Assembly (NCBI GenBank): GCA_947493955.1
Contig: CANLSQ010000001.1
Location: forward strand, 1,612,001 to 1,676,000
Length of the DNA stretch: 64,000 bases
Direction of reading: 5' to 3'
From: an uncultured Sphingomonadaceae bacterium
Lineage (GTDB): Bacteria; Pseudomonadota; Alphaproteobacteria; Sphingomonadales; Sphingomonadaceae
Positions 20,991 through 32,222 of the stretch are shown piece by piece. Position numbers and translations under genes: made by a program. The notes beneath the pieces were generated by a model, which had not been told where the DNA came from, did no database searches, and saw nothing but the letters and a program-made list of their open reading frames with translations. Positions within the stretch are counted from its first letter, which is position 1; every line of letters begins with the position of its first letter.

Positions 20991-21956
20991 CTAGTTCACA
21001 GAAGGGGCAGCGGCCCTGGCCATCAAACCGTTGGAATGGGCAACACCAGGAACAACCTTAACTCTCCAACCAAAGGGCAAGGCATATTCATCGGCCTTCT
21101 GTTTGCCGAATTCATGGTAAGATAGACCGCGAGCGAAACGATGCGGTCCCTGCTTCATGGCTTCCGGGCTCCGTCGCAGGCTTTTATGATTGGGATCATT
21201 GTCCTTATCCCCCAACAGCAGCAGGACGTTTTTGCTCAACGCCGCCTTTAATATCTCTTCAGAGATACCAGCCCCCGCCAGTCCATAAGGATATACTTCT
21301 GCCACATCGGGCCGCGTGTACCAGCCTGCATTGGCGGCGATATACTGTTTCACCGGCGCATCGGGTTTATAATAAAGATACCGGTGCACAAATTGTGCGC
21401 CGGCCGAGTGGCCGTAAATGCTATATTGCGTCTGCTGGCTTCCAACGGCCTGTTTCACACGATCGAAAATCGGCTCAATGGCGCTGAAGGACCAGATGGA
21501 TTCATCTTGCCGTCCTTCAGTTTCTTTCCGGAAGACATTGCCGAGATTATAGCCCGCGGATTTTGGAAAATCCCGCTGGGAAAATTCCGGCGCAACAACG
21601 ATCAGGCCGTTTTTCTGAGCAGGCTCTCGCCATTCCCTGAGATAGCGGTGAGGATCGCGCTTATTGCCGTGCATCATGAACAGGACAGGCGCGCGCGACA
21701 AATCAATGCCATCAGGCAAATATACCCAAACCGGCAAATCGGGGCCCGCCCACCTTGTGAAGACAAACCGGTTAATCTCTCCGGATTTCAGCGCAAGGGT
21801 TTGCGAAGTTCCGGTTGAGGTGACGCTGTGGAAAGGCTGCTCGGCTGGTCGCTCAGTAGCTTTGTTGCCGGACGGTGCGGCATCGGCAAAGGCAGAGAAG
21901 CCACCACCCGATATGACGAACAAACTGCTTACCAACGCAAGATATCGGACGTTCAT
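20991..21956 (-). CDS. Exported alpha/beta-hydrolase (PHB-depolymerase/esterase type)
   Basis: A 321-aa exported serine hydrolase with a signal peptide (MNVRYLALVSSLFVISGGGFSAFA). The nucleophile elbow is GHSAGA (YSIYGHSAGAQFVHRY), with an oxyanion segment LFMMHGNKRDPHRY and a late His in PGVAHSN. The fold resembles esterase/PHB-depolymerase-like hydrolases; the substrate is unknown. ATG 21956 was preferred over the ATG two codons upstream because AAAGGA then sits 7 nt away. It lies downstream of the TonB-receptor gene on the same strand, separated by a likely terminator. Confidence 0.82.
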   Translation of the reverse strand: MNVRYLALVSSLFVISGGGFSAFADAAPSGNKATERPAEQPFHSVTSTGTSQTLALKSGEINRFVFTRWAGPDLPVWVYLPDGIDLSRAPVLFMMHGNKRDPHRYLREWREPAQKNGLIVVAPEFSQRDFPKSAGYNLGNVFRKETEGRQDESIWSFSAIEPIFDRVKQAVGSQQTQYSIYGHSAGAQFVHRYLYYKPDAPVKQYIAANAGWYTRPDVAEVYPYGLAGAGISEEILKAALSKNVLLLLGDKDNDPNHKSLRRSPEAMKQGPHRFARGLSYHEFGKQKADEYALPFGWRVKVVPGVAHSNGLMARAAAPSVN

Positions 21957-21982
21957 CGGCATATCCTTTCCCGAAAAATTTT

Positions 21983-22071: not shown

Positions 22072-25000
22072 TCAGAAGCGAACGCTTGCACCGAGGAAAA
22101 ACTCACGGCCAACGGCATCATTCACGTCGTTCGTGATGTTGAGACTGCTGCCTGAATCAGTGCCTGTTGGTATGAGTGGACCGAAATTATTGAAGATATT
22201 ATTCACGCCGCCATAGATTGTATAACGGTCATCGGGACCGAAACGATAGCGTGCGTAAACATCATGAAAGGTTTCGTCACTCACGCGGAAGAAGCGATCG
22301 TCGTCAGGATTTGCAGCGTCATTACTGTCTATACCACCTGCTTCATAGTTGAGCGTGTAAGTCATTCGGAAACCACCGTTCCGATAACCCAAGCGCAAAC
22401 GAAGTTCGTCTTCACCATTATCGATTTCTCCCAATGGTGTATCCAACACCGTTACGCCGCCAATACCGGTGAACGTCGTTTGATCCTTGAAATAGTGGGA
22501 ATAGCGGAAGTCGATATCGAAACGGCCGGGGATAACCGGTAGTTCAATACGGCTCCACCGCATCGTGGCATCGATACCCTCGACCAGCTCGTTATTCAGG
22601 TTTTCTTGAAAGTTAATCACCTCATCAACACTGCCGTCCAGAGCGTTTCTGGTGATCACGTCGCAGAAACGGTTGTTCGGAAAATCGTCCGCAGCATAGC
22701 AAAGATCAACGGTATTTTGCGTGCTGACTGAACCAATCGCATCTTTGATGCTGATCCGGTAGTAGTCGGCCACAAAGGTAAAGTTTGGAATAGCCGACGG
22801 AGTGAGCACGAAACCGGCAGTAAATGTATTCGCGGTTTCTTCCTGAAGATTCTGGTTACCGGCATTTGGACCCTGCGTAGCACCTGGCGCATCAAAAGCA
22901 TCGGGCACACCGGCTGCATCCTGATTGTCGGGATCGGCAAAATAAGCCTGAATTCCAGCCTCAGTCAGACAGTTTTGTGCAATGGTAGCAAGGTTTGCAT
23001 TCTCTCCACCTGGACTTGATGGTGCTGAAATGCCGGTTCCATCCGGATTCAAACCCTCGCAAGGGTCCTGAAGATCATCGCCGTCAGGCCGCGCCGGCGA
23101 GAAAAACTCGGTAATGTTTGGCGCACGCTGAGATCGCGAAAATTGTGTGCGAAATCTTAGATCATCGTTCATCTGCCAAACAAGTCCGGCATTCAGGCTG
23201 AAAATCGTTCCGACGGTAGAATATTCAGCGATGCGAGCGGCACCGCTGACATTTATGGTTTCAAACAACGGAACATCAATTTCCACAAAACCTTCTACAA
23301 CGTCATAATTTGCCGTGATACTTGGAAAAGTAGAGTGGGTCGTAACGAAGACATCATTGGTTGTCGGATCACCATCGACACCGCCGACCAAATCACCATC
23401 ACGGTCCCCTCTCGTGCTTTGCGTTTCCCGGCGATACTCAACACCGGCAGCAAATTTCACATTGCGGTCATTTATAGAGAAAAGATCACCATTGATTGAC
23501 CCACCAGCCGTAAACTGGGTTCGTTTTTGCGAAGCGTCACCCGTGTAGCTGATATATTCTGCGGCTTCGGGAGATACACTTCCTTCGCCAAAAAGATTTA
23601 ACGGCACACAGCCATTTTGACGGGCGGCTGCATCGGCGCATTGAAAACCACCCGCACCATTATCTTCGATGTCCAGAGCAAAATCTACATTTTGAAGATT
23701 GATCTCACCCACATTAATTGCCCGTTGCTTCCATTCGCCATAGGTCGCGAAAGCGTTCCATCTGATTGCATCCGTCAACTGGCCATCCAGATCACCCATT
23801 AAGCGGATCGTTTCACGGCTGTTGATGCGTTGCTCTTCGCCAACTTCCGGAAAGGATCTGATCCACGATACGGTACCGCTTCGCGTAACCTCAACTTCCG
23901 GCGGGATGAATGGATGGTCCGAAGCCATTCGGCGAACATTGAATACGTCAGGCACACCGTTTAAAATGCCGTAAGATTCTCCACTGCCGGCATCTTCGAT
24001 GCCATTGCGACTGACTGTGTCTACATCGGAATAGAGTGCAGTCAGCGATGCAGTAACCACGTCGGAGAACTCATATTTTCCATGAAAACCAAGATTAAGT
24101 ATTTCGCGTTTCGAGCGCAGAGACTGGCCCAAACGATCATTGATACCATCAAAGTCTCCCAGGAAATCTTGTCCCGGCTCGCGATCAGCGGGCAGACGAC
24201 CAAAACCACTAGGATCATCACGCGCTACGTCATTAAACCACTGACCATCTCTGAACCAGGCATCACCTTCAAAAACACCACCTGGAAGATCGGAATCGAA
24301 CGAAGGTAAAATGCAATGGCGGTCAGTATTATCGGGATCACAACCCGGCGCATTTACTTCATTGGCGAAGGAATCCCGGGAAGCATCAGCTGGATCATCA
24401 AATTCCAGCGCAGCCGCAGCTAAAGGACGACTGGAATCGATCAAAATCTCATCCTCATCCCGATAGCTTGCACCGAGCAGAATATAACCACGGTCATCTG
24501 CAAATCTGGTGCCATAGAGACCTTCGAGGCGCAGCTCTTCGCCGCCGCTGGCATCGGGAGCCGAAAAGCGGACATCGAGATCGATGCCTTCAAAAGAGTC
24601 TTCGAGAATGAAGTTCGCAACACCTGCGATAGCATCAGAACCATAAATCGCGGATGCACCGCCGGTTGTAATTTCCGCACGCTTTACGAAGCCTGCTGGA
24701 ATAGTACCAAGGCTGACCCGATCACCATTGCCCGAGTTGGACACAGCCCGCTTACCGTTAATCAAGACAAGCGTTCTGTTATCTCCCAACCGCCGTAAAC
24801 TAATCGTGGAAAGGCCATTATTTTGGATAGAGTTGTTGCTGTTCTGAACCGAAACGCCATCACCTACACCAGGAAGCTGCGTGATGATTTCCGCCAGATC
24901 CGTCTTGCCTGTTTCTTCAATATCATCTGCGCTGAATACCTGTAGCGGGATAGACGATTCTTCGGCTCGCCGTTCGATACGCGACCCCGTAACAACAATC

Positions 25001-25122
25001 AGATCGTCGCCTGCGCTTGCCTCAGCCTGTTCCGTGTCCGGCACCTCTTGAGCCAGAGCCGGGATACTGGTTACCGCCACTAGTACGGTTGAACATTTTA
25101 GTATGTTACGTAACTTTATCAT
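22072..25122 (-). CDS. TonB-dependent receptor
   Basis: A 1016-aa outer-membrane receptor: signal peptide (MIKLRNILKCSTVLVAVTSIPALAQ), plug domain (VTGSRIERRAEESSIPLQVF through GASAIYGSDAIAGVANFI, residues ~45-175), and a beta-barrel ending in the outer-membrane C-terminus FFLGASVRF. It imports ligands with TonB/ExbBD energy. The sphingomonad-type plug with a very long barrel is common for receptors of peptides, oligosaccharides or plant compounds. The start at 25122 is preferred over 25158 because GAGGGGG lies upstream and it begins the signal peptide. It is divergent from a LysR gene and shares an operator-like element with the peptidase operon, so peptide-derived ligands are inferred. Confidence 0.93.
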   Translation of the reverse strand: MIKLRNILKCSTVLVAVTSIPALAQEVPDTEQAEASAGDDLIVVTGSRIERRAEESSIPLQVFSADDIEETGKTDLAEIITQLPGVGDGVSVQNSNNSIQNNGLSTISLRRLGDNRTLVLINGKRAVSNSGNGDRVSLGTIPAGFVKRAEITTGGASAIYGSDAIAGVANFILEDSFEGIDLDVRFSAPDASGGEELRLEGLYGTRFADDRGYILLGASYRDEDEILIDSSRPLAAAALEFDDPADASRDSFANEVNAPGCDPDNTDRHCILPSFDSDLPGGVFEGDAWFRDGQWFNDVARDDPSGFGRLPADREPGQDFLGDFDGINDRLGQSLRSKREILNLGFHGKYEFSDVVTASLTALYSDVDTVSRNGIEDAGSGESYGILNGVPDVFNVRRMASDHPFIPPEVEVTRSGTVSWIRSFPEVGEEQRINSRETIRLMGDLDGQLTDAIRWNAFATYGEWKQRAINVGEINLQNVDFALDIEDNGAGGFQCADAAARQNGCVPLNLFGEGSVSPEAAEYISYTGDASQKRTQFTAGGSINGDLFSINDRNVKFAAGVEYRRETQSTRGDRDGDLVGGVDGDPTTNDVFVTTHSTFPSITANYDVVEGFVEIDVPLFETINVSGAARIAEYSTVGTIFSLNAGLVWQMNDDLRFRTQFSRSQRAPNITEFFSPARPDGDDLQDPCEGLNPDGTGISAPSSPGGENANLATIAQNCLTEAGIQAYFADPDNQDAAGVPDAFDAPGATQGPNAGNQNLQEETANTFTAGFVLTPSAIPNFTFVADYYRISIKDAIGSVSTQNTVDLCYAADDFPNNRFCDVITRNALDGSVDEVINFQENLNNELVEGIDATMRWSRIELPVIPGRFDIDFRYSHYFKDQTTFTGIGGVTVLDTPLGEIDNGEDELRLRLGYRNGGFRMTYTLNYEAGGIDSNDAANPDDDRFFRVSDETFHDVYARYRFGPDDRYTIYGGVNNIFNNFGPLIPTGTDSGSSLNITNDVNDAVGREFFLGASVRF

Positions 25123-25221
25123 CTGATATATCCCCCTCGAGACAATTTTGTTGCACAATCCCAGCTGTTACTGAGCCATTGTTCCTCCGACCCCGGTCTG
25201 ACATCATAAAAAATGACTTCA

Positions 25222-25248
25222 AATTCATAATTGGAATGATACGATGCG
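25222..25248. promoter_or_regulatory. Putative LysR operator, copy 1 (TonB receptor / LysR intergenic region)
   Basis: AATTCATAATTGGAATG begins a 27-nt element; its core ATTC-N7-GAAT contains a T-N11-A LysR box (25224-25236). A second copy, 22 of 27 identical and in the same orientation, lies at 30352-30378 upstream of the S9 peptidase operon. The element is 34 nt before the LysR start and 100 nt before the receptor start, an appropriate place for divergent control. Confidence 0.7.
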
Positions 25249-25281
25249 AAAAACGCAAGATTCTGAAAAAGGACATTTTTC

Positions 25282-26178
25282 TTGGAACTAAAGTGGCTGG
25301 AAGATTTCATTAGTGTTGCCGAGAAGGGACACTTTGCCCATGCTGCAGAGGCACGGTTCGTTACTCAGTCCGCTTTAAGTCGTCGTATTCAGGCGCTGGA
25401 GTCGTGGATTGGTACACCTCTTTTCAACCGCTCAGCTCACCCCATCAAGCTGACACCCGCGGGGGAAGATTTTATCAATACCGCCAGAAATATTGTCGAT
25501 CAGTGTTACGAAGCGCGCGCGGTTGCGAATGAATATTCAAAAATCGGTAAAAACAGCATCACGATTTCCAGTCTGCATACTTTGGCGTTAAAATTTGTAC
25601 CGGAACTCATAAATTCCTGGCATGGGGTCACCTCGCCATTTTCTACCCTGATCATTGCCGAAACCCGTGCGGCCGAAGACTATCTGACCAGTCTTCACAA
25701 CGGGGCCAGTGATTTCTTCATCTCATATCATCATGACTCGATCTCGTTCGATTTCGATCCGGTACAATTCCCTAGTATCGAAATTGAACGCCACCACTTG
25801 CGTCCATATCAAAGCATCGATTCTGCTCCGATTGATCTAAGGGATGATGGTTTCGAATCCATCCCCTATGTGGCCTATTCCAACACGTCCTTCATGTCCC
25901 GCATTTTTGAGCAGTTGCTTGGCAAAGCGCGTTTTAGAAAGAGACTAAACATCGTGTATCGAGCAGCTTTGGTTGAAAGCATATTGGCGGCAACGCAAAA
26001 TGGATTCGGAATATCATGGTTGCCAGAAACCGTTGTTCCCGGAGATCCCGCGGAGCAAGGACTGCGTCTCGTGCCAAGTAATCATACGACAGACCTATCT
26101 ATTCGTATCTACTGTGCCGCGAGTAATGGAAACCCCATCGTTTCTGATATTTGGGAAAAGCTCAAGCAGCCGGACTGA
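25282..26178 (+). CDS. LysR-type transcriptional regulator
   Basis: A 298-aa LTTR: winged HTH at residues 2-60 (LEDFISVAEKGHFAHAAEAR, then TQSALSRRIQALE), followed by a substrate-binding domain (ISSLHTLALKFVPELI onward). The start is TTG 25282 with AAGGAC about 8 nt upstream; no ATG in frame would preserve the HTH. It is divergent from the TonB receptor, and an operator-like palindrome in the shared region recurs upstream of the S9-DUF819-S51 operon. It is therefore the likely regulator of all of them. The inducer is unknown; a peptide or amino acid is inferred. Confidence 0.92.
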   Translation: MELKWLEDFISVAEKGHFAHAAEARFVTQSALSRRIQALESWIGTPLFNRSAHPIKLTPAGEDFINTARNIVDQCYEARAVANEYSKIGKNSITISSLHTLALKFVPELINSWHGVTSPFSTLIIAETRAAEDYLTSLHNGASDFFISYHHDSISFDFDPVQFPSIEIERHHLRPYQSIDSAPIDLRDDGFESIPYVAYSNTSFMSRIFEQLLGKARFRKRLNIVYRAALVESILAATQNGFGISWLPETVVPGDPAEQGLRLVPSNHTTDLSIRIYCAASNGNPIVSDIWEKLKQPD

Positions 26179-26223
26179 CAAGCTTCATCACTCCGTTCCC
26201 GAAGAAGCGCTTTTTTTTGAACA

Positions 26224-26940
26224 TCAGCCGATGCGCTGAACGGTAAATCGCGAGGAAACAAGTGCGCCATTCTGTTTCGATATCTGTTGTAAACCGGCAG
26301 TATCACTGATGGAAACCACGGATCTGATATTTTCGTTTTCGAAATGAATGGCAACCTCCTCGTCAATCGCGAAGGCTGGAAAGACTGCCTCACTATTGGC
26401 TAAGAAATCTTGAAATATTGATTGCCGGCCAGGGTTTACATCATAATGCACACAAACACTGCCGTTCAAGAACCCGTACCCCTGTAGTGGAGCGAGCTCC
26501 GACTTCACCGAGTCCGTAATATTCCAATCAAACATGATATTGAGACCAGCGCTCGCACCGGCAATTATCACGCCTGCTTCATAAGCATCGCGCAAGGCAT
26601 CCACGACACCCCATTCCTCAAAAATCGCCATCAGATTACGGGTCGATCCTCCGTCTATAAAAACGATATCGACGCCGGCAAAAAACAAACTGGGATCACC
26701 CGTCGGGGGATTAAACAAACTGAGTACATGGGGCACTGCATCAATCCGCTCGGCCAGCGTGAGGAATTCAGTAATTCGATCCTGCCGGTCACCTTTCGCA
26801 GCGCCCACATAACAAACAACAGGATTTGTCTTTTTCGACAGAGAGACAAGTTTTTTCGCCATGGCGGGTTCGGCATCGTCCGCCACAAACAGCGACGCAG
26901 AATCGCTTATGCCAAAAAACTGTCGGGAAACAGCTGTCAT
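26224..26940 (-). CDS. Peptidase family S51 protein (peptidase E / cyanophycinase-like)
   Basis: A 238-aa S51 serine peptidase with the nucleophile in GASAG (VIIAGASAGLNIMFDWN, residues ~115-130) and the preceding FIDGGSTRNL. Family members cleave Asp-X dipeptides (peptidase E) or beta-aspartyl-arginine polymer (cyanophycinase). No signal peptide is seen, so it is cytoplasmic. ATG 26940 overlaps the DUF819 stop as ATGA, showing translational coupling in the S9-DUF819-S51 operon. It would finish cytoplasmic breakdown of imported Asp-containing dipeptides. The exact specificity cannot be read from sequence. Confidence 0.82.
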   Translation of the reverse strand: MTAVSRQFFGISDSASLFVADDAEPAMAKKLVSLSKKTNPVVCYVGAAKGDRQDRITEFLTLAERIDAVPHVLSLFNPPTGDPSLFFAGVDIVFIDGGSTRNLMAIFEEWGVVDALRDAYEAGVIIAGASAGLNIMFDWNITDSVKSELAPLQGYGFLNGSVCVHYDVNPGRQSIFQDFLANSEAVFPAFAIDEEVAIHFENENIRSVVSISDTAGLQQISKQNGALVSSRFTVQRIG

Positions 26941-28169
26941 GGAGCAACCGCCTGCATCAGCTGCGCGCACAAGATCGCGCCATAAGTGCCCAAAGCATAA
27001 CCAAGCACCGCGAGCAGGACCCCGACGGGGGCGAGCGCAGGATGAAAGGCCGCCGCAACTACAGGTGCCGACGCTGCACCACCGACATTCGCTTTGCTGC
27101 CCACCGCGACAAAGAAAAACGGAGCCCGGATCATCTTGGCGACCACGATCAACAATATGCTGTGGAACAACATCCAGATGAACCCGACGAGGAAGAGCAT
27201 CGGCGCATCAGCCATTTGGAAAATATCCATCTTGGTGCCGATAATGGCCACCAGCAGAAATATAAGAACAGTTCCGAACTTGGATGCACCCGCTCCTTCA
27301 AGGTCGCGCGCCTTGGTAAAGCTGAGTGCTACGCCCAAAGTGGTCGCAATCACCACTATCCAGAAGAATTTACCCGCCAGAAAACTGTCAGTAAAAGCAG
27401 GTATGGCTTCGAAAGCACCGGACAGAAATCCACCCAAGAGATGAGATAGACCGACCCCGCCAAAAGCCACCGCGAGCAACAGCATGATTTCCGATGTGGT
27501 AGACGTGCGTTCAACAGACAGGGTGAAATTCGCCATCTTGTCTCGCAAATTATCTATCGCACTAGAGTCTGCCTTTAGCCAGCGGTCCACTTTCTCAACA
27601 TTACCAGCACCATAAAGTAGAAATGCCATCCAGATATTGGCAATGACGATGTCGACAGCGACCATGGCGCCGTAACGCTCTGGATTATAGCCATAGACTT
27701 CCAGCATCGCTGTCTGATTGGCACCGCCGCCGATCCAGCTGCCGGCCAGTGTTGCAAGACCGCGCCATACCGCGTCAGCCCCTTCACCACCAACAGTCTC
27801 CGGACTGAACGAACCCACGATCAGGATCGCGATAGGCCCACCGATGATGATGCCGATCGTGGCGGTGAAAAACATGATGAGCGCCTTGGATCCAAGGCCC
27901 ATAATGGCTTTGAGGTCGATGCTCAATGTCATCAATATCAAAGCTGCGGGCAGAAAATAATCCTTGGCCACCTGCCACAAACCGTCATCGGCCGATGCCA
28001 CAATACCAAAGCTGCGAAGCAGTGAGGGGATCAGGTAGCAGAGCAATACGATGGGAATGAAAACGAAAAACCGATCCCAGAAACCACCCCGGTTTTTGAG
28101 AAAAAACAGGATACCCAATATAGCGCAAAGGACACCAAAGCTCGCGACATTATCCAGTGGCAATGTCAT
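26937..28169 (-). CDS. DUF819 (YjcL-type) integral membrane protein
   Basis: A 410-aa polytopic membrane protein with about 10-12 predicted segments (for example VASFGVLCAILGILFFL, ALIMFFTATIGIIIGGPIAILI, FGTVLIFLLVAIIG). The conserved GSWIGGGANQTAM and GGAASAPVVAA stretches are typical of DUF819. The family has no established substrate, but its fold class is transporter-like. Here it is sandwiched and translationally coupled (ATGA overlaps at both ends) between an exported S9 peptidase and a cytoplasmic S51 peptidase. This makes it a good candidate for the inner-membrane importer of the released di- or tripeptides. Confidence 0.85.
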   Translation of the reverse strand: MTLPLDNVASFGVLCAILGILFFLKNRGGFWDRFFVFIPIVLLCYLIPSLLRSFGIVASADDGLWQVAKDYFLPAALILMTLSIDLKAIMGLGSKALIMFFTATIGIIIGGPIAILIVGSFSPETVGGEGADAVWRGLATLAGSWIGGGANQTAMLEVYGYNPERYGAMVAVDIVIANIWMAFLLYGAGNVEKVDRWLKADSSAIDNLRDKMANFTLSVERTSTTSEIMLLLAVAFGGVGLSHLLGGFLSGAFEAIPAFTDSFLAGKFFWIVVIATTLGVALSFTKARDLEGAGASKFGTVLIFLLVAIIGTKMDIFQMADAPMLFLVGFIWMLFHSILLIVVAKMIRAPFFFVAVGSKANVGGAASAPVVAAAFHPALAPVGVLLAVLGYALGTYGAILCAQLMQAVAP

Positions 28170-30289
28170 TGAGCGGTCTCTTCACTAACCTTTTGTTCTT
28201 CCGGAACTTCCTGCTCCTCTTCTTCCTTGGTATCTTCTTCCTCTACCTCAGGCTCTATCGGTGGCAGAGCAGGTTGATAGTCTTTATCGAGGACATGTTT
28301 GGCATACCAGGCAAGTTCTGTATTGATCTTGAACAGCTGGTTAAAGGGCTTGCGAAAACCATGCGGCTCACCCTCGGCAACATAGAGGCTTGTCGGAGCA
28401 CCGGCCGCCCGGACGCCCCGGTACATCATGATCTGCTGGGTAGGCGGCACCCTTACGTCGTTGCCACCGTTGAAGAACAAGGTCGGTGTTTTCACTTTCC
28501 ACGCATCTTTCAATGGTGACTGGGCGATGTAACTATCCAGCGGCGCATTTTCCTGCCACGGGGCACCGCCAAACCAGGGCGTGCGATTGTGGCGTACGTC
28601 ACTCTCCCCGTACATGGATATCCAGCTTGATGCTCCCGCGCCGGATGATGCCGCCTTGAACCGGTCGGTAAAGGTGATCAGCTTGTTGGTCATATGGCCG
28701 CCGGCGCTCCAGCCCATCTTCACCAGCCGGTCTGGGTCAGCAATACCCTGTGTGACCAGGGCATCAATACCGTCCAGAACATCGAGATGCGAGTTGCGGA
28801 AATAGTTGCCGACCATGTCGCGCATGAAGGCATCGCCGTAGCCGGTTCCGCCTCGATGATTGGGCAGGAAAACCGCATATCCCTGCCCTGCGAGAACACT
28901 GGCATATCGTGAGGTATTCCAGGATCCAAATTGCGAGGATGAGCGCGGACCGCCGTGCGTGATTGTGACCAGCGGATATTGGTCATCGGCCCGGTAACCG
29001 ACTGGCGGTATCAATAAACCTTCAATCGGCGTGCCATCTCTTGCCGTCCATTGAAAAACCTGCTGGTCGGGAAGCCGGACATGTTTTGTCCATTCGTCAT
29101 GGATCCCGCTGACCTTTTCAAGCGGGCCACCTTTCCTCTTTATGTGAACTTCACCGGGACTCCGCGCATCCGTAAGCAGCATGATATGCGTGTCTGTTTC
29201 CGGATTGTAGCGCCAGTCTCCCAGCGCATGATCGCCCTCGGTAATCGGTATCAGCCGATTGCTGCGCAGATTCAGTCGAAACAGATTGGTGCGAACACCC
29301 GTATTTCCCAATATGAAGATCTCCGAACCTTCCCTGTTCCATGCGAAGTCCAGAACTTCCATGGGCTCGTTCGGCAGCAACAATTCCGGCTGTGATGATC
29401 CTATCGCCTGAACAAACAGGTTGTCTTCATAATAACCTTCACCCTTTTCATTGACGGTGGCGATGAAAGCGAAGCGGGTTCTATCAGGCGACAGCTGCGC
29501 TTCTGCCTCGTGATATCCATTATCGGTCAGACGGGTGTCGCTACCCGTCGCAACATCGCGCAGCCACAATTCCCGATGGTGGCTGGCATAGCCCGCCCCC
29601 TCTGGCATGCGGCTATAGATAATCTGGCTATCATCGGCCGACAGCGAAAAATGGCGAACGCTGAACGGGCCGGCCAGAACCGGCTCCGATATCTTCTCGT
29701 CCCTCTGGTAACGCCAGAGTTCCATCGGAATGGAAACATCATAAGGCGCTATTTCGCGCGCCTTGTCTTCCTTTGTTTTCTTTTCGTCACGTCGCATCCG
29801 AAAGTAAATCGTGCGACCATCATTCGTCCATTTGAAATCTGAGACATTCTCCGGATGCTCGAACAATTTGGTCAGGCTTTTGGTCTCGATATCGTAAAAA
29901 TAGGCGGCAGCCTTTTCATCATCTTCACGTTTCAACGTTGCCACGAAACCGGAACTGTCTGGGGCCCATTGTGCGGCCGACAGGCTATCATCCTCAATCT
30001 CGTTGCGCGGAATTACCTGCAAGTCTCCAGTTTCAACATCAATCAGGTTGTAAGCATCAACCCGCTCATTCTCTGCCCAATCCACCGCCGATTGGACCAT
30101 GATGATTTTCTTGCCGTCCGCAGAAAGCATGGGGTCATCCAGCCGCGGCATCTCGATAAACGCAACCGGACCTACCGTTGTTTTTTCAGATTTCTCGGCT
30201 GCCTGTAGCGGCGTTGAAACAGTCATGCCGACCCCCAACAAAAGAACTGCCGTGGAACTCGCAACGCGTAAGTTTCTGATGATCGCCAT
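28166..30289 (-). CDS. Exported S9 family prolyl-oligopeptidase-type peptidase
   Basis: A 707-aa peptidase with a signal peptide (ASSTAVLLLGVGMTVSTPLQA), a beta-propeller (repeats such as DPMLSADGKKI, SLSADDSQIIYSRM, QLSPDRTRFAFI), then an alpha/beta-hydrolase domain. Catalytic Ser lies in GWSAGG, Asp in GGNDVRVPP and His in EGEPHGFRKP. After the hydrolase domain comes an acidic Glu-rich tail (EVEEEDTKEEEEQEVPEEQ). ATG 30289 follows GAGGGG and is preferred to the GTG three codons before. First gene of a coupled S9-DUF819-S51 operon; likely a periplasmic dipeptidyl- or oligopeptidase. Confidence 0.93.
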   Translation of the reverse strand: MAIIRNLRVASSTAVLLLGVGMTVSTPLQAAEKSEKTTVGPVAFIEMPRLDDPMLSADGKKIIMVQSAVDWAENERVDAYNLIDVETGDLQVIPRNEIEDDSLSAAQWAPDSSGFVATLKREDDEKAAAYFYDIETKSLTKLFEHPENVSDFKWTNDGRTIYFRMRRDEKKTKEDKAREIAPYDVSIPMELWRYQRDEKISEPVLAGPFSVRHFSLSADDSQIIYSRMPEGAGYASHHRELWLRDVATGSDTRLTDNGYHEAEAQLSPDRTRFAFIATVNEKGEGYYEDNLFVQAIGSSQPELLLPNEPMEVLDFAWNREGSEIFILGNTGVRTNLFRLNLRSNRLIPITEGDHALGDWRYNPETDTHIMLLTDARSPGEVHIKRKGGPLEKVSGIHDEWTKHVRLPDQQVFQWTARDGTPIEGLLIPPVGYRADDQYPLVTITHGGPRSSSQFGSWNTSRYASVLAGQGYAVFLPNHRGGTGYGDAFMRDMVGNYFRNSHLDVLDGIDALVTQGIADPDRLVKMGWSAGGHMTNKLITFTDRFKAASSGAGASSWISMYGESDVRHNRTPWFGGAPWQENAPLDSYIAQSPLKDAWKVKTPTLFFNGGNDVRVPPTQQIMMYRGVRAAGAPTSLYVAEGEPHGFRKPFNQLFKINTELAWYAKHVLDKDYQPALPPIEPEVEEEDTKEEEEQEVPEEQKVSEETAQ

Positions 30290-30351
30290 GCCCCTCACCC
30301 TTCTTTATGTTCAAAGAATTGTCATGATGCATACAAATGCCACAGGTCGCC

Positions 30352-30378
30352 AATTCATAATTCGAATGTCATCATGCG
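30352..30378. promoter_or_regulatory. Putative LysR operator, copy 2 (S9 operon promoter)
   Basis: AATTCATAATTCGAATG and the following bases to ATGCG match copy 1 at 25222-25248 in 22 of 27 positions, in the same orientation relative to minus-strand transcription. It lies 62 nt upstream of the S9 peptidase start. The core ATTC-N7-GAAT dyad is fully conserved. It indicates shared control by the LysR protein encoded at 25282. Confidence 0.68.
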
Positions 30379-30413
30379 TTTTCGGCAAGATCAGACACTG
30401 GCGATGCCGCTAC

Positions 30414-32222
30414 TCAGTTGATTCTTGCCCGCAATAATACGGAAAATTCCGAAGTGGGTTGGGGACGTGCAAATACACCCTTGGGATTAATGCAAATATA
30501 TGTGACCGCCGGATCGTAGCCGCTCACGGGTTCATAGCCACAGTCCGCGAAAGATACCGGCATGGTCGGCTGATTGGAGAAAGCGACGTCATTATTGTAA
30601 TCAAGGCTTAATGTGCTGCCATTGTCGACAAACACGATCGGGTCACTGCCGGGGAAATTGTCCGGTCCGCCATTATCGATATCATCGTTCAGAAAAGCCA
30701 TCTGACTGGGCAACTGGTCGATGATGAAGACGCTATCTTCTCCACCCGGCCCGCCGCCGACATTCTGGACGACAATTGTGTAGATAATATCTTCGCCCGG
30801 TATGGAAAAGCCGCTGCTGGTGCCACTGCCCGTATAGACGGAAGAGGTTTTGATGACGTTCAACTTGGCCGGATCAATTGATGACGTACGCCCAAGTTCG
30901 GTAAAATTGCCCTGACAATTGCCTGGGCTGCCATCAGTCGCTCCCCAATTGGGATCACCAACATTGTTGCCCAGTACGCTCGTGCCGGCGGAGCCTCCAC
31001 TGACAACCGGTGTGATCGCAGCGCAGGTCGCACCAAATAGTCTGATTGCACCGCCGCCGCCACCGCCGCCGGTACCATGGGCGAATTGATCATTGGCTTC
31101 ATCACCGCCTTCGCCTCCGGCAACCCGGAAAACAGGAGATCCAGATATACCGGTAATTACGGAGAGTGCGATTGCCCCACCCGCGCCGCCGCCGTCCGAA
31201 CCATTGAAATTATCCGCAAGGGCCGACAGGCCGTCCGCAATCATCCGGCCGCCATTACCGACAAGCCGGTCCACCCGGACAAAGACAAGCCCACCACCGC
31301 TGCGATCGCCGCCGCTTTCGGCCTGCGATACTTCCGATCCCGATCCACCGCCGCCGCCCATGAAAAGTCGGTTGTTGGGTGAATAGTCCAGGGCTTGGCC
31401 GCCAAGGCCGCCAAAATTACCGTCATCGTCACACAGGTCCAGTTCACGACCACCCAGACCGCCGGCACCAATATTGCCGCCACCACCGCCGCCGGCATCG
31501 GTAATATTTCCGCCACCACCGCCATTGCCATTATGTCCGCGTCGGGCCTCATGAGCAGATGCGCCCGGCACGACACCTTCGCCCTTGTTGCCAGTCCCCG
31601 CCTGCATGACGCCGGTATAGTTGAATTGATCCGACCCGCAGCTGTCAAAAGGCGTTGATGTTGCGAGCGCACCGCCACGAAATCCCCGACCTGTCGCATT
31701 GATATCTGCGCCCAATGTCAAAGTCCCGACCACATCAAATGCTACCACACCGCCAATTCGTCCGTTCCAGGCCTGTGGCACGACCGCCTGGTTCAGGTTC
31801 AGGCTGTCAAAAACCGGCACGCTGACCATCTGTAAAGAGCCACCAGTGGAAAATGACACCGTTGGAGCATCCGATAGAGTGACCGTGTTTCCGGAAACCG
31901 AAACGATTTTGACATATTCGAAGCGCCCGGCGCTATTATATGCAGTAATATCGCCATGGGCGGCATCGTCAGTTCGCGTGACGGAGGTCCCTTTCATCTG
32001 CACTATCAGTGCCCGGCTATTTGCGGTGAAACCACTGCTGCTGGATAGCTGGACAGTTGTCGAAGAGATTGAGACCACCTGGGCATAGCTGTTTATCACG
32101 GTGCCGGAAGGAATATTGGTGGTCTGCGCAAAAGCCGCTGCATAAGGATGTACAAGAACCGCCAGCAGGCCGGTGATACATATTCTCCAGATCAATGCCC
32201 TGAGACTAAACAAGTCTTTCAA
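30414..32222 (-). CDS. Exported glycine-rich surface protein with C-terminal DUF11-like repeat domain
   Basis: A 602-aa exported protein. The signal peptide ends near HPYAAAFAQ, followed by a beta-rich region (INSYAQVVSISSTTVQLSS). A long Gly-rich section follows (clusters of GNGGGGGN, GGGGGN, GGGGSGSE, GTGGGGGGG, residues ~200-410). A C-terminal domain of the DUF11/conserved-repeat type (EDIIYTIVVQNVGGGPGGED, FIIDQLPSQMAFL) often occurs in surface adhesins. The Gly-rich insert probably forms an extended or polyGly-II-like shaft. It is monocistronic, and an extracellular or adhesive role is inferred. No sorting signal is evident at the C-terminus, which ends SEFSVLLRARIN. Confidence 0.72.
   Translation of the reverse strand: MKDLFSLRALIWRICITGLLAVLVHPYAAAFAQTTNIPSGTVINSYAQVVSISSTTVQLSSSSGFTANSRALIVQMKGTSVTRTDDAAHGDITAYNSAGRFEYVKIVSVSGNTVTLSDAPTVSFSTGGSLQMVSVPVFDSLNLNQAVVPQAWNGRIGGVVAFDVVGTLTLGADINATGRGFRGGALATSTPFDSCGSDQFNYTGVMQAGTGNKGEGVVPGASAHEARRGHNGNGGGGGNITDAGGGGGGNIGAGGLGGRELDLCDDDGNFGGLGGQALDYSPNNRLFMGGGGGSGSEVSQAESGGDRSGGGLVFVRVDRLVGNGGRMIADGLSALADNFNGSDGGGAGGAIALSVITGISGSPVFRVAGGEGGDEANDQFAHGTGGGGGGGAIRLFGATCAAITPVVSGGSAGTSVLGNNVGDPNWGATDGSPGNCQGNFTELGRTSSIDPAKLNVIKTSSVYTGSGTSSGFSIPGEDIIYTIVVQNVGGGPGGEDSVFIIDQLPSQMAFLNDDIDNGGPDNFPGSDPIVFVDNGSTLSLDYNNDVAFSNQPTMPVSFADCGYEPVSGYDPAVTYICINPKGVFARPQPTSEFSVLLRARIN

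Follow-up and report, generated by a model that had tools for sequence, protein, structure and literature searches.

Within the window (the whole 64,000-nucleotide stretch analysed here), the genes of a TonB-dependent receptor and a LysR-type regulator are divergently arranged, and beyond the regulator lie genes for an S51 peptidase, a DUF819 membrane protein and an S9 peptidase. Pfam matches bear out the identities that the initial annotation had given to all five. The S9, DUF819 and S51 genes overlap end to start and are therefore likely to form one operon, and the S9 product has an N-terminus that resembles a signal peptide by eye. The initial annotation also reported a 27-nt element shared by the two units, and by counting we confirmed its two copies at 25222–25248 and 30352–30378, in one absolute orientation and identical at 22 of 27 positions. 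The features, in window coordinates, are as follows.

22072–25158, minus strand: TonB-dependent receptor, first putative target (Pfam PF00593, PF07715; likely ATG at 25122, by eye)
25217–25267, minus strand: putative operator copy 1, covering 51 columns of model R1, with the TonB receptor and LysR genes on either side and directed toward the TonB receptor
25224–25236, minus strand: second dyad of copy 1, TTC-N7-GAA (T-N11-A), activation-site-like (columns 32–44 of alignment A1)
25245–25257, minus strand: recognition-type dyad of copy 1, TGCG-N5-CGCA (T-N11-A; columns 11–23 of A1)
25282–26178, plus strand: LysR-type regulator that probably binds the element (Pfam PF00126, PF03466; co-occurrence with the element)
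26224–26970, minus strand: S51 peptidase, operon partner (Pfam PF03575)
26937–28169, minus strand: DUF819 membrane protein, operon partner (Pfam PF05684)
28166–30298, minus strand: S9 peptidase, second putative target (Pfam PF00326; likely ATG at 30289, by eye)
30347–30397, minus strand: putative operator copy 2, ahead of the S9-DUF819-S51 operon and directed toward S9
30354–30366, minus strand: second dyad of copy 2, TTC-N7-GAA
30375–30387, minus strand: recognition-type dyad of copy 2, TGCCGAAAACGCA (T-N11-A)

Given that both copies share one absolute orientation and both target genes lie on the minus strand, the element is directed to the receptor and S9 genes and away from LysR. Each copy does lie upstream of a transcription unit, as had been proposed, the promoters concerned being those of the receptor and S9 by orientation. 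Copy 1, described earlier as sitting directly before the LysR gene, does adjoin it but is oriented to the receptor promoter.

Two copies of one element in the host genome

A degenerate pattern of the element (≤3 mismatches) matched the window twice against 0.01 matches expected, and none of 100 shuffles gave two matches. A search of all 3,405,287 bases of the genome for the 17-nt core (≤2 mismatches) returned three matches, both copies with 0 mismatches and C1:479745 with 2, and the reversed-pattern control returned none. A position weight matrix (PWM) built from 15 copies of other species gave the two window copies its highest scores, 57.3 for copy 1 and 23.0 for copy 2, against 5.5 for the next best match in the window. 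Model R1, a gapless model of 25 copies of other species, likewise ranked them first and second in their own genome, copy 1 at 25218–25267 (E = 1.4e-10) and copy 2 at 30349–30390 (E = 5.7e-4), with the next best match at E = 0.14. Copy 2 is modest by itself, its E-value lying above the 1e-4 cut used for family genomes, and the TTTCA stretch present in most copies is missing from it.

A two-part element next to a LysR-type regulator

The two 27-nt copies are real, but the conserved element is longer, at about 45–50 bp (~25217–25267 and ~30347–30397), and comprises in order a TTGC-N7-GCA dyad (T-N11-A), an 8-bp gap, a TTC-N7-GAA-like dyad and a TTG/TGG triplet. In alignment A1 (25 copies, gapless, 51 columns), the 8-bp gap is fixed and the dyad centres lie 21 bp apart. 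The ATTC-N7-GAAT dyad with its T-N11-A box, on which the initial annotation rested, is present but represents only the second, degenerate half; the upstream TGC-N7-GCA dyad is the best conserved part and falls mostly beyond the 27 nt, with T11, G12 and A23 invariant in all 25 copies. In the second dyad, C34, G42 and A43 reach at least 90% and A44 is invariant, the left half is degenerate and pairing occurs in just 46% of cells; T46 and G48, which follow it, are again invariant. Covariation of half-sites was rejected as proof of a dyad, given that none was seen beyond shuffles.

This layout resembles that of LysR-type regulators, for which PMC8407307 describes a recognition site (RBS, T-N11-A) near -65 and an activation site (ABS) near -35. 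In keeping with that description, the window combines HTH_1 and LysR_substrate domains with a gene divergent from its putative target, and its element of ~50 bp holds two T-N11-A dyads spaced by two helical turns. If TTG/TGG is read as a -35 box, the recognition site would come to lie near -65; a -10 box at 16–18 bp, the expected spacing, gave no signal (2.57 matches vs 2.40 in shuffles, fraction 0.19). The putative targets here differ, one being a TonB receptor and the other an operon of peptidases and a putative transporter.

The regulator itself matches PF00126 at 75.5 bits (cut-off 26.6) and PF03466 at 42.5 bits (cut-off 28), and residues T28, Q29, S30, A31, S33, R34 and R35 of its helix-turn-helix are invariant among 21 orthologues. 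Its best NCBIfam model, HypT (PRK10082), scored 94.6 bits and missed the cut-off of 301. The nearest solved chains were VV2_1132 (5y9s, 133.7 bits), 7dwn (112 bits) and 5ydw (86.5 bits), the last titled 'cell density-dependent motility repressor'; we take 7dwn to be the Vibrio fischeri D-aspartate responder DarR and 5ydw to be HypT.

Distribution of the element among relatives

The association of the element with the LysR gene and the module genes extends across related genomes. In a leave-one-locus-out scan of 1.82 Mb in 97 sequences, some of them redundant, every one of the 38 matches scoring >17 lies ahead of a gene for a receptor, S9 or DUF819, the best other match reaching 16.3 and the reversed control 14.8. 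With R1 on 57 genomes, 30 matches at E ≤ 1e-5 all fell within the 21 LysR-bearing genomes, 18 of which had contributed to the model, and none in the 36 without LysR. In 397 family genomes, the same window-free model found sites in 16/16 genomes with a LysR orthologue (≥41% identity; six unused in model building) vs 0/381 others, at a cut of E ≤ 2e-5 chosen afterwards. In these surveys, absence of LysR was called from the 5–9 best first-look candidates per genome. The element thus marks orthologues of these genes in relatives, as the initial annotation had suggested checking: 20 of the 21 family-genome sites precede a receptor or S9 gene, or an operon headed by one, and the other (G564 C16:71133) adjoins a truncated LysR copy.

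Module genes separated from LysR have their own element copy in most cases. Two such cases are unlinked: the S9-DUF819 pair of P. marina (L016) has a copy ~355 kb from LysR, and S9 of G547 (L147) has one on a different contig; the receptor-LysR unit of P. marina shows a weak site only (15.9). Receptors split from LysR also have their own copy (L026 and L105 and, with a second receptor type, L029, L106 and L113). DUF819 homologues outside the module were free of the element in four LysR-positive genomes (G005, G018 and those of L027 and L028), and membership therefore follows the module rather than every DUF819. Together, the related genomes support the earlier proposal that the receptor, S9, DUF819 and S51 genes form one probable regulon.

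Is the adjacent LysR the protein that uses this operator? A different DNA-binding protein could use it, with LysR merely travelling with the module; binding by LysR is something we infer, and a few genomes that lack LysR contain weak look-alikes (G014, 1.9e-4; G002, 0.0019; G068, 5.2e-5; G459, 7.8e-5; G637, 8.1e-5), of which only that in G637 is explained, as a module relic. We consider this improbable given the co-occurrence in the 397 genomes, the two T-N11-A dyads at 21-bp spacing, and the position of the element, which in most divergent loci ends 10–14 bp ahead of the LysR match (exceptions L114, 22 bp, and L109, 199 bp). Moreover, only seven gene clusters recur in more than two of 23 loci, and LysR is the sole regulator among them.

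A slightly less probable alternative is that copy 1 is a LysR operator and copy 2 is functionless, its likeness arising from a small DNA duplication or chance. The gap between the two E-values would fit this, as would the lack of a sharp footprint among close relatives, where the surroundings downstream of copy 2 are conserved like the element itself (element 38/39, upstream 88/100, downstream 58 or 59/60). Against it, copies ahead of S9 are also found in L015, L045, L159, L016 and L147, with different letters at degenerate positions. The initial annotation had named a scattered repeat with no tie to LysR loci as the refuting outcome. The presence of two similar stretches might speak for it, but it can be dismissed, with only two copies in 3.4 Mb, no third core copy within 1 mismatch, no other R1 match below E = 0.14, and family-genome sites confined to the LysR-bearing genomes at E ≤ 2e-5.

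We therefore favour, with a probability of roughly 0.87 on the sequence comparisons, the reading that the element is a canonical operator of the adjacent LysR (25282–26178) and controls a probable peptide-utilisation module. The upstream TGC-N7-GCA dyad would serve as the recognition site, and the weaker TTC-N7-GAA-like activation site, 21 bp (two helical turns) downstream, would run directly into TTG/TGG, taken here to be the -35 region of the target's promoter. A LysR tetramer would occupy both sites and, together with a small ligand probably derived from peptide breakdown, would switch on the TonB receptor via copy 1 and the S9-DUF819-S51 operon via copy 2. The LysR start codon lies about 13 bp beyond the end of copy 1, so that bound LysR would also limit its own synthesis; the LysR gene itself would be autoregulated at most. 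The regulation is ordinary LysR architecture and a small new example of it. No earlier study of this regulon appears among the openly licensed papers listed in the searches. The operator provides a specific set of targets, open to testing, for what seems to be an unstudied group of LysR regulators.

A putative peptide-utilisation module

The products of the module would act in series, from outer-membrane uptake through periplasmic cleavage by S9 and inner-membrane import by DUF819 to cytoplasmic cleavage by S51. S9 peptidases stand alongside TonB receptors in lasso-peptide clusters of the AtxE2 family, an arrangement that the window shares; the lasso-peptide isopeptidase AtxE2 model scored 104.9 bits (cut-off 400 missed). 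Assignment of the S9 product as a Dpp5 dipeptidyl peptidase was rejected (175.7 bits, cut-off 900 missed). The S51 product shares the Pfam S51 match and a GASAG motif with its family, which includes cyanophycinase and dipeptidase PepE, and GASAG, H175 and D203 are invariant among 12 orthologues (alignment A2). A search of solved chains up to E = 0.1 matched cyanophycinase 7uqv alone (E = 2.1e-4), and neither cyanophycinase (TIGR02069, 31.1 bits vs cut-off 126.6) nor PepE (PRK05282, 23.9 bits vs cut-off 156) could be assigned.

PMC8396727 places DUF819 in the CPA/AT transporter clan, and PMC12671195 describes M15 peptidase-DUF819 pairs in Neisseria; the passages and listings consulted name no DUF819 substrate. 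Among the neighbours of DUF819 (78 of 80 loci, two being without an ORF), no recurrent peptidase besides the module S9 and S51 was seen by eye in the 25 largest clusters listed. Through the operator, the DUF819 membrane family becomes linked with a TonB receptor and both module peptidases, which gives a previously 'unknown membrane protein' a specific hypothetical role, namely dipeptide or short-peptide import.

An esterase-like gene downstream of the receptor (20991–21962 and orthologues) was considered as a possible separate regulon member. Neither the window nor L013 nor L015 has a site for it; near its probable start in L029 and L106 there is a sub-threshold stretch related to the element (best score 12.4 in one scan and 5.4 in another; control 14.8). 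As a tentative and rather speculative extension, the module may constitute a pathway that the literature searches did not reveal, in which DUF819 imports short aspartate-type peptides across the inner membrane, S51 cleaves them and LysR senses the product, with cyanophycin- or isoaspartyl-derived peptides as possible substrates. In L015, an aspartate ammonia-lyase gene (subfamily cut-off met) directly follows S51.

The element and its two copies in the window

The initial annotation described a 27-nt element occurring twice in the window, and both copies were located as stated (two occurrences versus 0.01 expected). Around them lie the genes for a TonB receptor and a LysR regulator, together with an S9-DUF819-S51 operon whose genes overlap:

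22072–25158 (−), TonB receptor (TBDR)
25217–25267 (−), copy 1 of the extended element (27-nt copy at 25222–25248)
25282–26178 (+), LysR regulator
26224–26970 (−), S51
26937–28169 (−), DUF819
28166–30298 (−), S9
30347–30397 (−), copy 2 of the extended element (27-nt copy at 30352–30378)

Across the whole genome, the 17-nt core of the element has no third copy at ≤1 mismatch and one two-mismatch match (C1:479745), while R1, a gapless sequence model of 25 copies, recovered copy 1 (E = 1.4e-10) and copy 2 (E = 5.7e-4), with the next-best match at 0.14. A gene for an AgmC-like gliding-motility protein (30414–32222, same strand; 218 bits, cut-off 275) ends just before copy 2, which therefore sits between this gene and S9.

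A longer common sequence was visible across the upstream regions of relatives, and 25 copies align gaplessly across 51 columns (duplicate loci and L104, with one extra base in dyad 1, were omitted beforehand), with T11, G12, A23, A44, T46 and G48 invariant. The element comprises two T-N11-A boxes with centres 21 bp apart and TTG/TGG after the second. In this alignment, the half-sites pair in 77.6% of cells in dyad 1 (TGC-N7-GCA, upstream and recognition-type) versus 46.4% in dyad 2 (TTC-N7-GAA-like), with no half-site covariation beyond shuffles. The ATTC-N7-GAAT dyad of the initial annotation is thus the less conserved half, and is well formed mainly in the window clade (the window and near-identical L013, L014 and L039) plus some relatives; the direction assigned to the element is likewise refined, with the regulon claim kept. 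The LysR layout described in PMC8407307 has its recognition site near −65 and its activation site at −35, and the element matches that description in its 21-bp spacing, two boxes and subsequent TTG/TGG. No −10 box was recognisable downstream, so we infer the promoter placement.

We consider the element a predicted LysR operator of textbook-like form that serves an uncharacterised module (probability roughly 0.87), a confidence trimmed slightly because close relatives show an unspecific footprint for copy 2 (identity 38/39 in the element, 88/100 upstream and 58 or 59 of 60 downstream). The regulon is a useful prediction for this module, not a new kind of system.

Occurrence of the element alongside LysR

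A DUF819 protein scan gave 80 loci, and LysR searches of family and order samples gave further ones (L115 and L116 repeat L015 and L045). The five module genes recur together in several orders, chiefly in Sphingomonadales records.

Gene orders at module loci
LysR<>TBDR, S9-DUF819-S51 beyond LysR on the far side: window, L013, L014, L039, L015, L045
LysR<>TBDR-S9-DUF819-S51: L018, L021, L103
LysR<>DUF819-S51-TBDR, without S9: L026, L105; L029, L106 with a second receptor type
LysR then TBDR-S9-DUF819-S51, single strand: L112
LysR and receptor only, with or without distant S9: L107–L111, L114
LysR, receptor, S9 and S51: L102
LysR, receptor and S51: L104

The complete Sphingomonadales-like module of L018 (DUF819 74% identical) stands in a record titled Opitutales, which probably reflects either misbinning of the contig or a transfer. 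In L105 (9053–9394), DUF819 is apparently truncated (113-aa frame) despite a strong site upstream.

A weight matrix seeded with 15 copies picked by eye from upstream regions, excluding the window and its near-identical relatives, placed the two copies of the window at the top (57.3 and 23.0; next 5.5). Leave-one-locus-out scanning of 97 sequences (1,816,126 bases, including redundancy) gave 38 matches above 17, each of them ahead of a gene for a receptor, S9 or DUF819; for three (L029:12023, L106:7401, L113:6487) this is the second receptor type, recognised by clustering. The highest match elsewhere scored 16.3, and the reversed control reached 14.8. Eleven of the 38 were non-seed (the second of L029, L102, L103, L104, two each in L105 and L106, L107, L109, L113), and eight matches of the window clade likewise lay outside the seed set. 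A sub-threshold stretch, TCATTCC...GGAATGG...CGAATTGC, common to L029:17939–17996 and L106 near 2916, lies close to where the esterase-like gene (20991–21962 in the window) probably begins and is perhaps a variant operator.

At E ≤ 1e-5, R1, which uses sequence only, made 30 matches in 57 chosen genomes. Each fell within one of the 21 that carry a LysR orthologue, and the other 36 gave none; LysR status came partly from scoring the best first-look candidates per genome. As 18 of these 21 had contributed to R1, a second test used 397 evenly drawn family genomes, 16 of which hold LysR at ≥41% identity. At E ≤ 2e-5, a cut set after the table was seen, sites occurred in the same 16/16 and in 0/381 others, uncorrected for species relatedness; the preset cut of 1e-4 adds three genomes (G068, G459, G637). 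Six of the 16 were untrained (G000, G549, G616, G564, G576, G591), although G549 and G616 share coordinates with G538 and G537 of the 57-genome set. A seventeenth LysR match (G360, 34% identity) had no R1 site. The element does mark orthologues of the module genes in relatives. A receptor or S9 gene follows 20 of the 21 sites that pass E ≤ 2e-5. The other, a strong one, adjoins a short truncated LysR copy (G564, L159:13133–13569; residues 1–67 match), which suggests a duplicated, decayed regulator. Weak sites of the common TTGC-N7-GCAACA form in G014, G002, G008 and G459 (L149, L150, L155, L164), which lack this LysR and show no module genes within the stretches examined, possibly belong to another regulator.

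Proposed regulon logic and accessory distribution

Where genes run colinearly after the receptor, a single site stands in front (L018, L021, L103, L112). Split units carry their own: in the window, L015, L045 and L159 this holds for S9, and in L026, L029, L105 and L106 for receptor and DUF819 separately. Most telling are two unlinked cases. Parasphingorhabdus marina (L016) has a strong site before an S9-DUF819 operon ~355 kb from LysR, its receptor-LysR unit having a weak site only (15.9), and G547 (L147) has a site (44.3) before an S9 orthologue on a contig other than that of either LysR. The probable regulon first proposed is supported. Four genomes with LysR (G005, G018 and the genomes of L027 and L028) have non-module DUF819 genes that lack the element, contradicting a blanket DUF819 rule.

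LysR occurs in 2/10 listed genomes of the window's genus, its own included, so the module is accessory. G637, of the same genus, is without LysR and DUF819 yet retains a site (27.8), preceding a hybrid frame (L162:9772–10840) with S9-like residues 1–246 and residues 240–323 like the window's esterase-like protein. The matched BLAST ends fall at positions 29592 and 21242 of the window, so G637 lacks the intervening stretch; the locus resembles a scar left by deletion of the entire module, with the operator retained.

Predicted functions

The function we favour, with low to moderate confidence, is peptide uptake with an aspartate bias. This prediction draws on an S9 product that looks secreted (signal-like N-terminus, by eye), an S51 that bears the GASAG motif as well as an invariant H and an invariant D, the placing of DUF819 in the CPA/AT transporter clan (PMC8396727) and an aspartate ammonia-lyase gene directly after S51 in L015. 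S51 falls short of the cyanophycinase and PepE model cut-offs. LysR resembles HypT and VV2_1132, although it misses the HypT model cut-off. In P. marina, an alanine-racemase-fold/D-serine-dehydratase-type protein (L016:11323–12489) adjoins the module, its nearest NCBIfam model being 3-hydroxy-D-aspartate aldolase (below cut-off); the N-terminus of L159:13743–14891 in G564 resembles it by eye.
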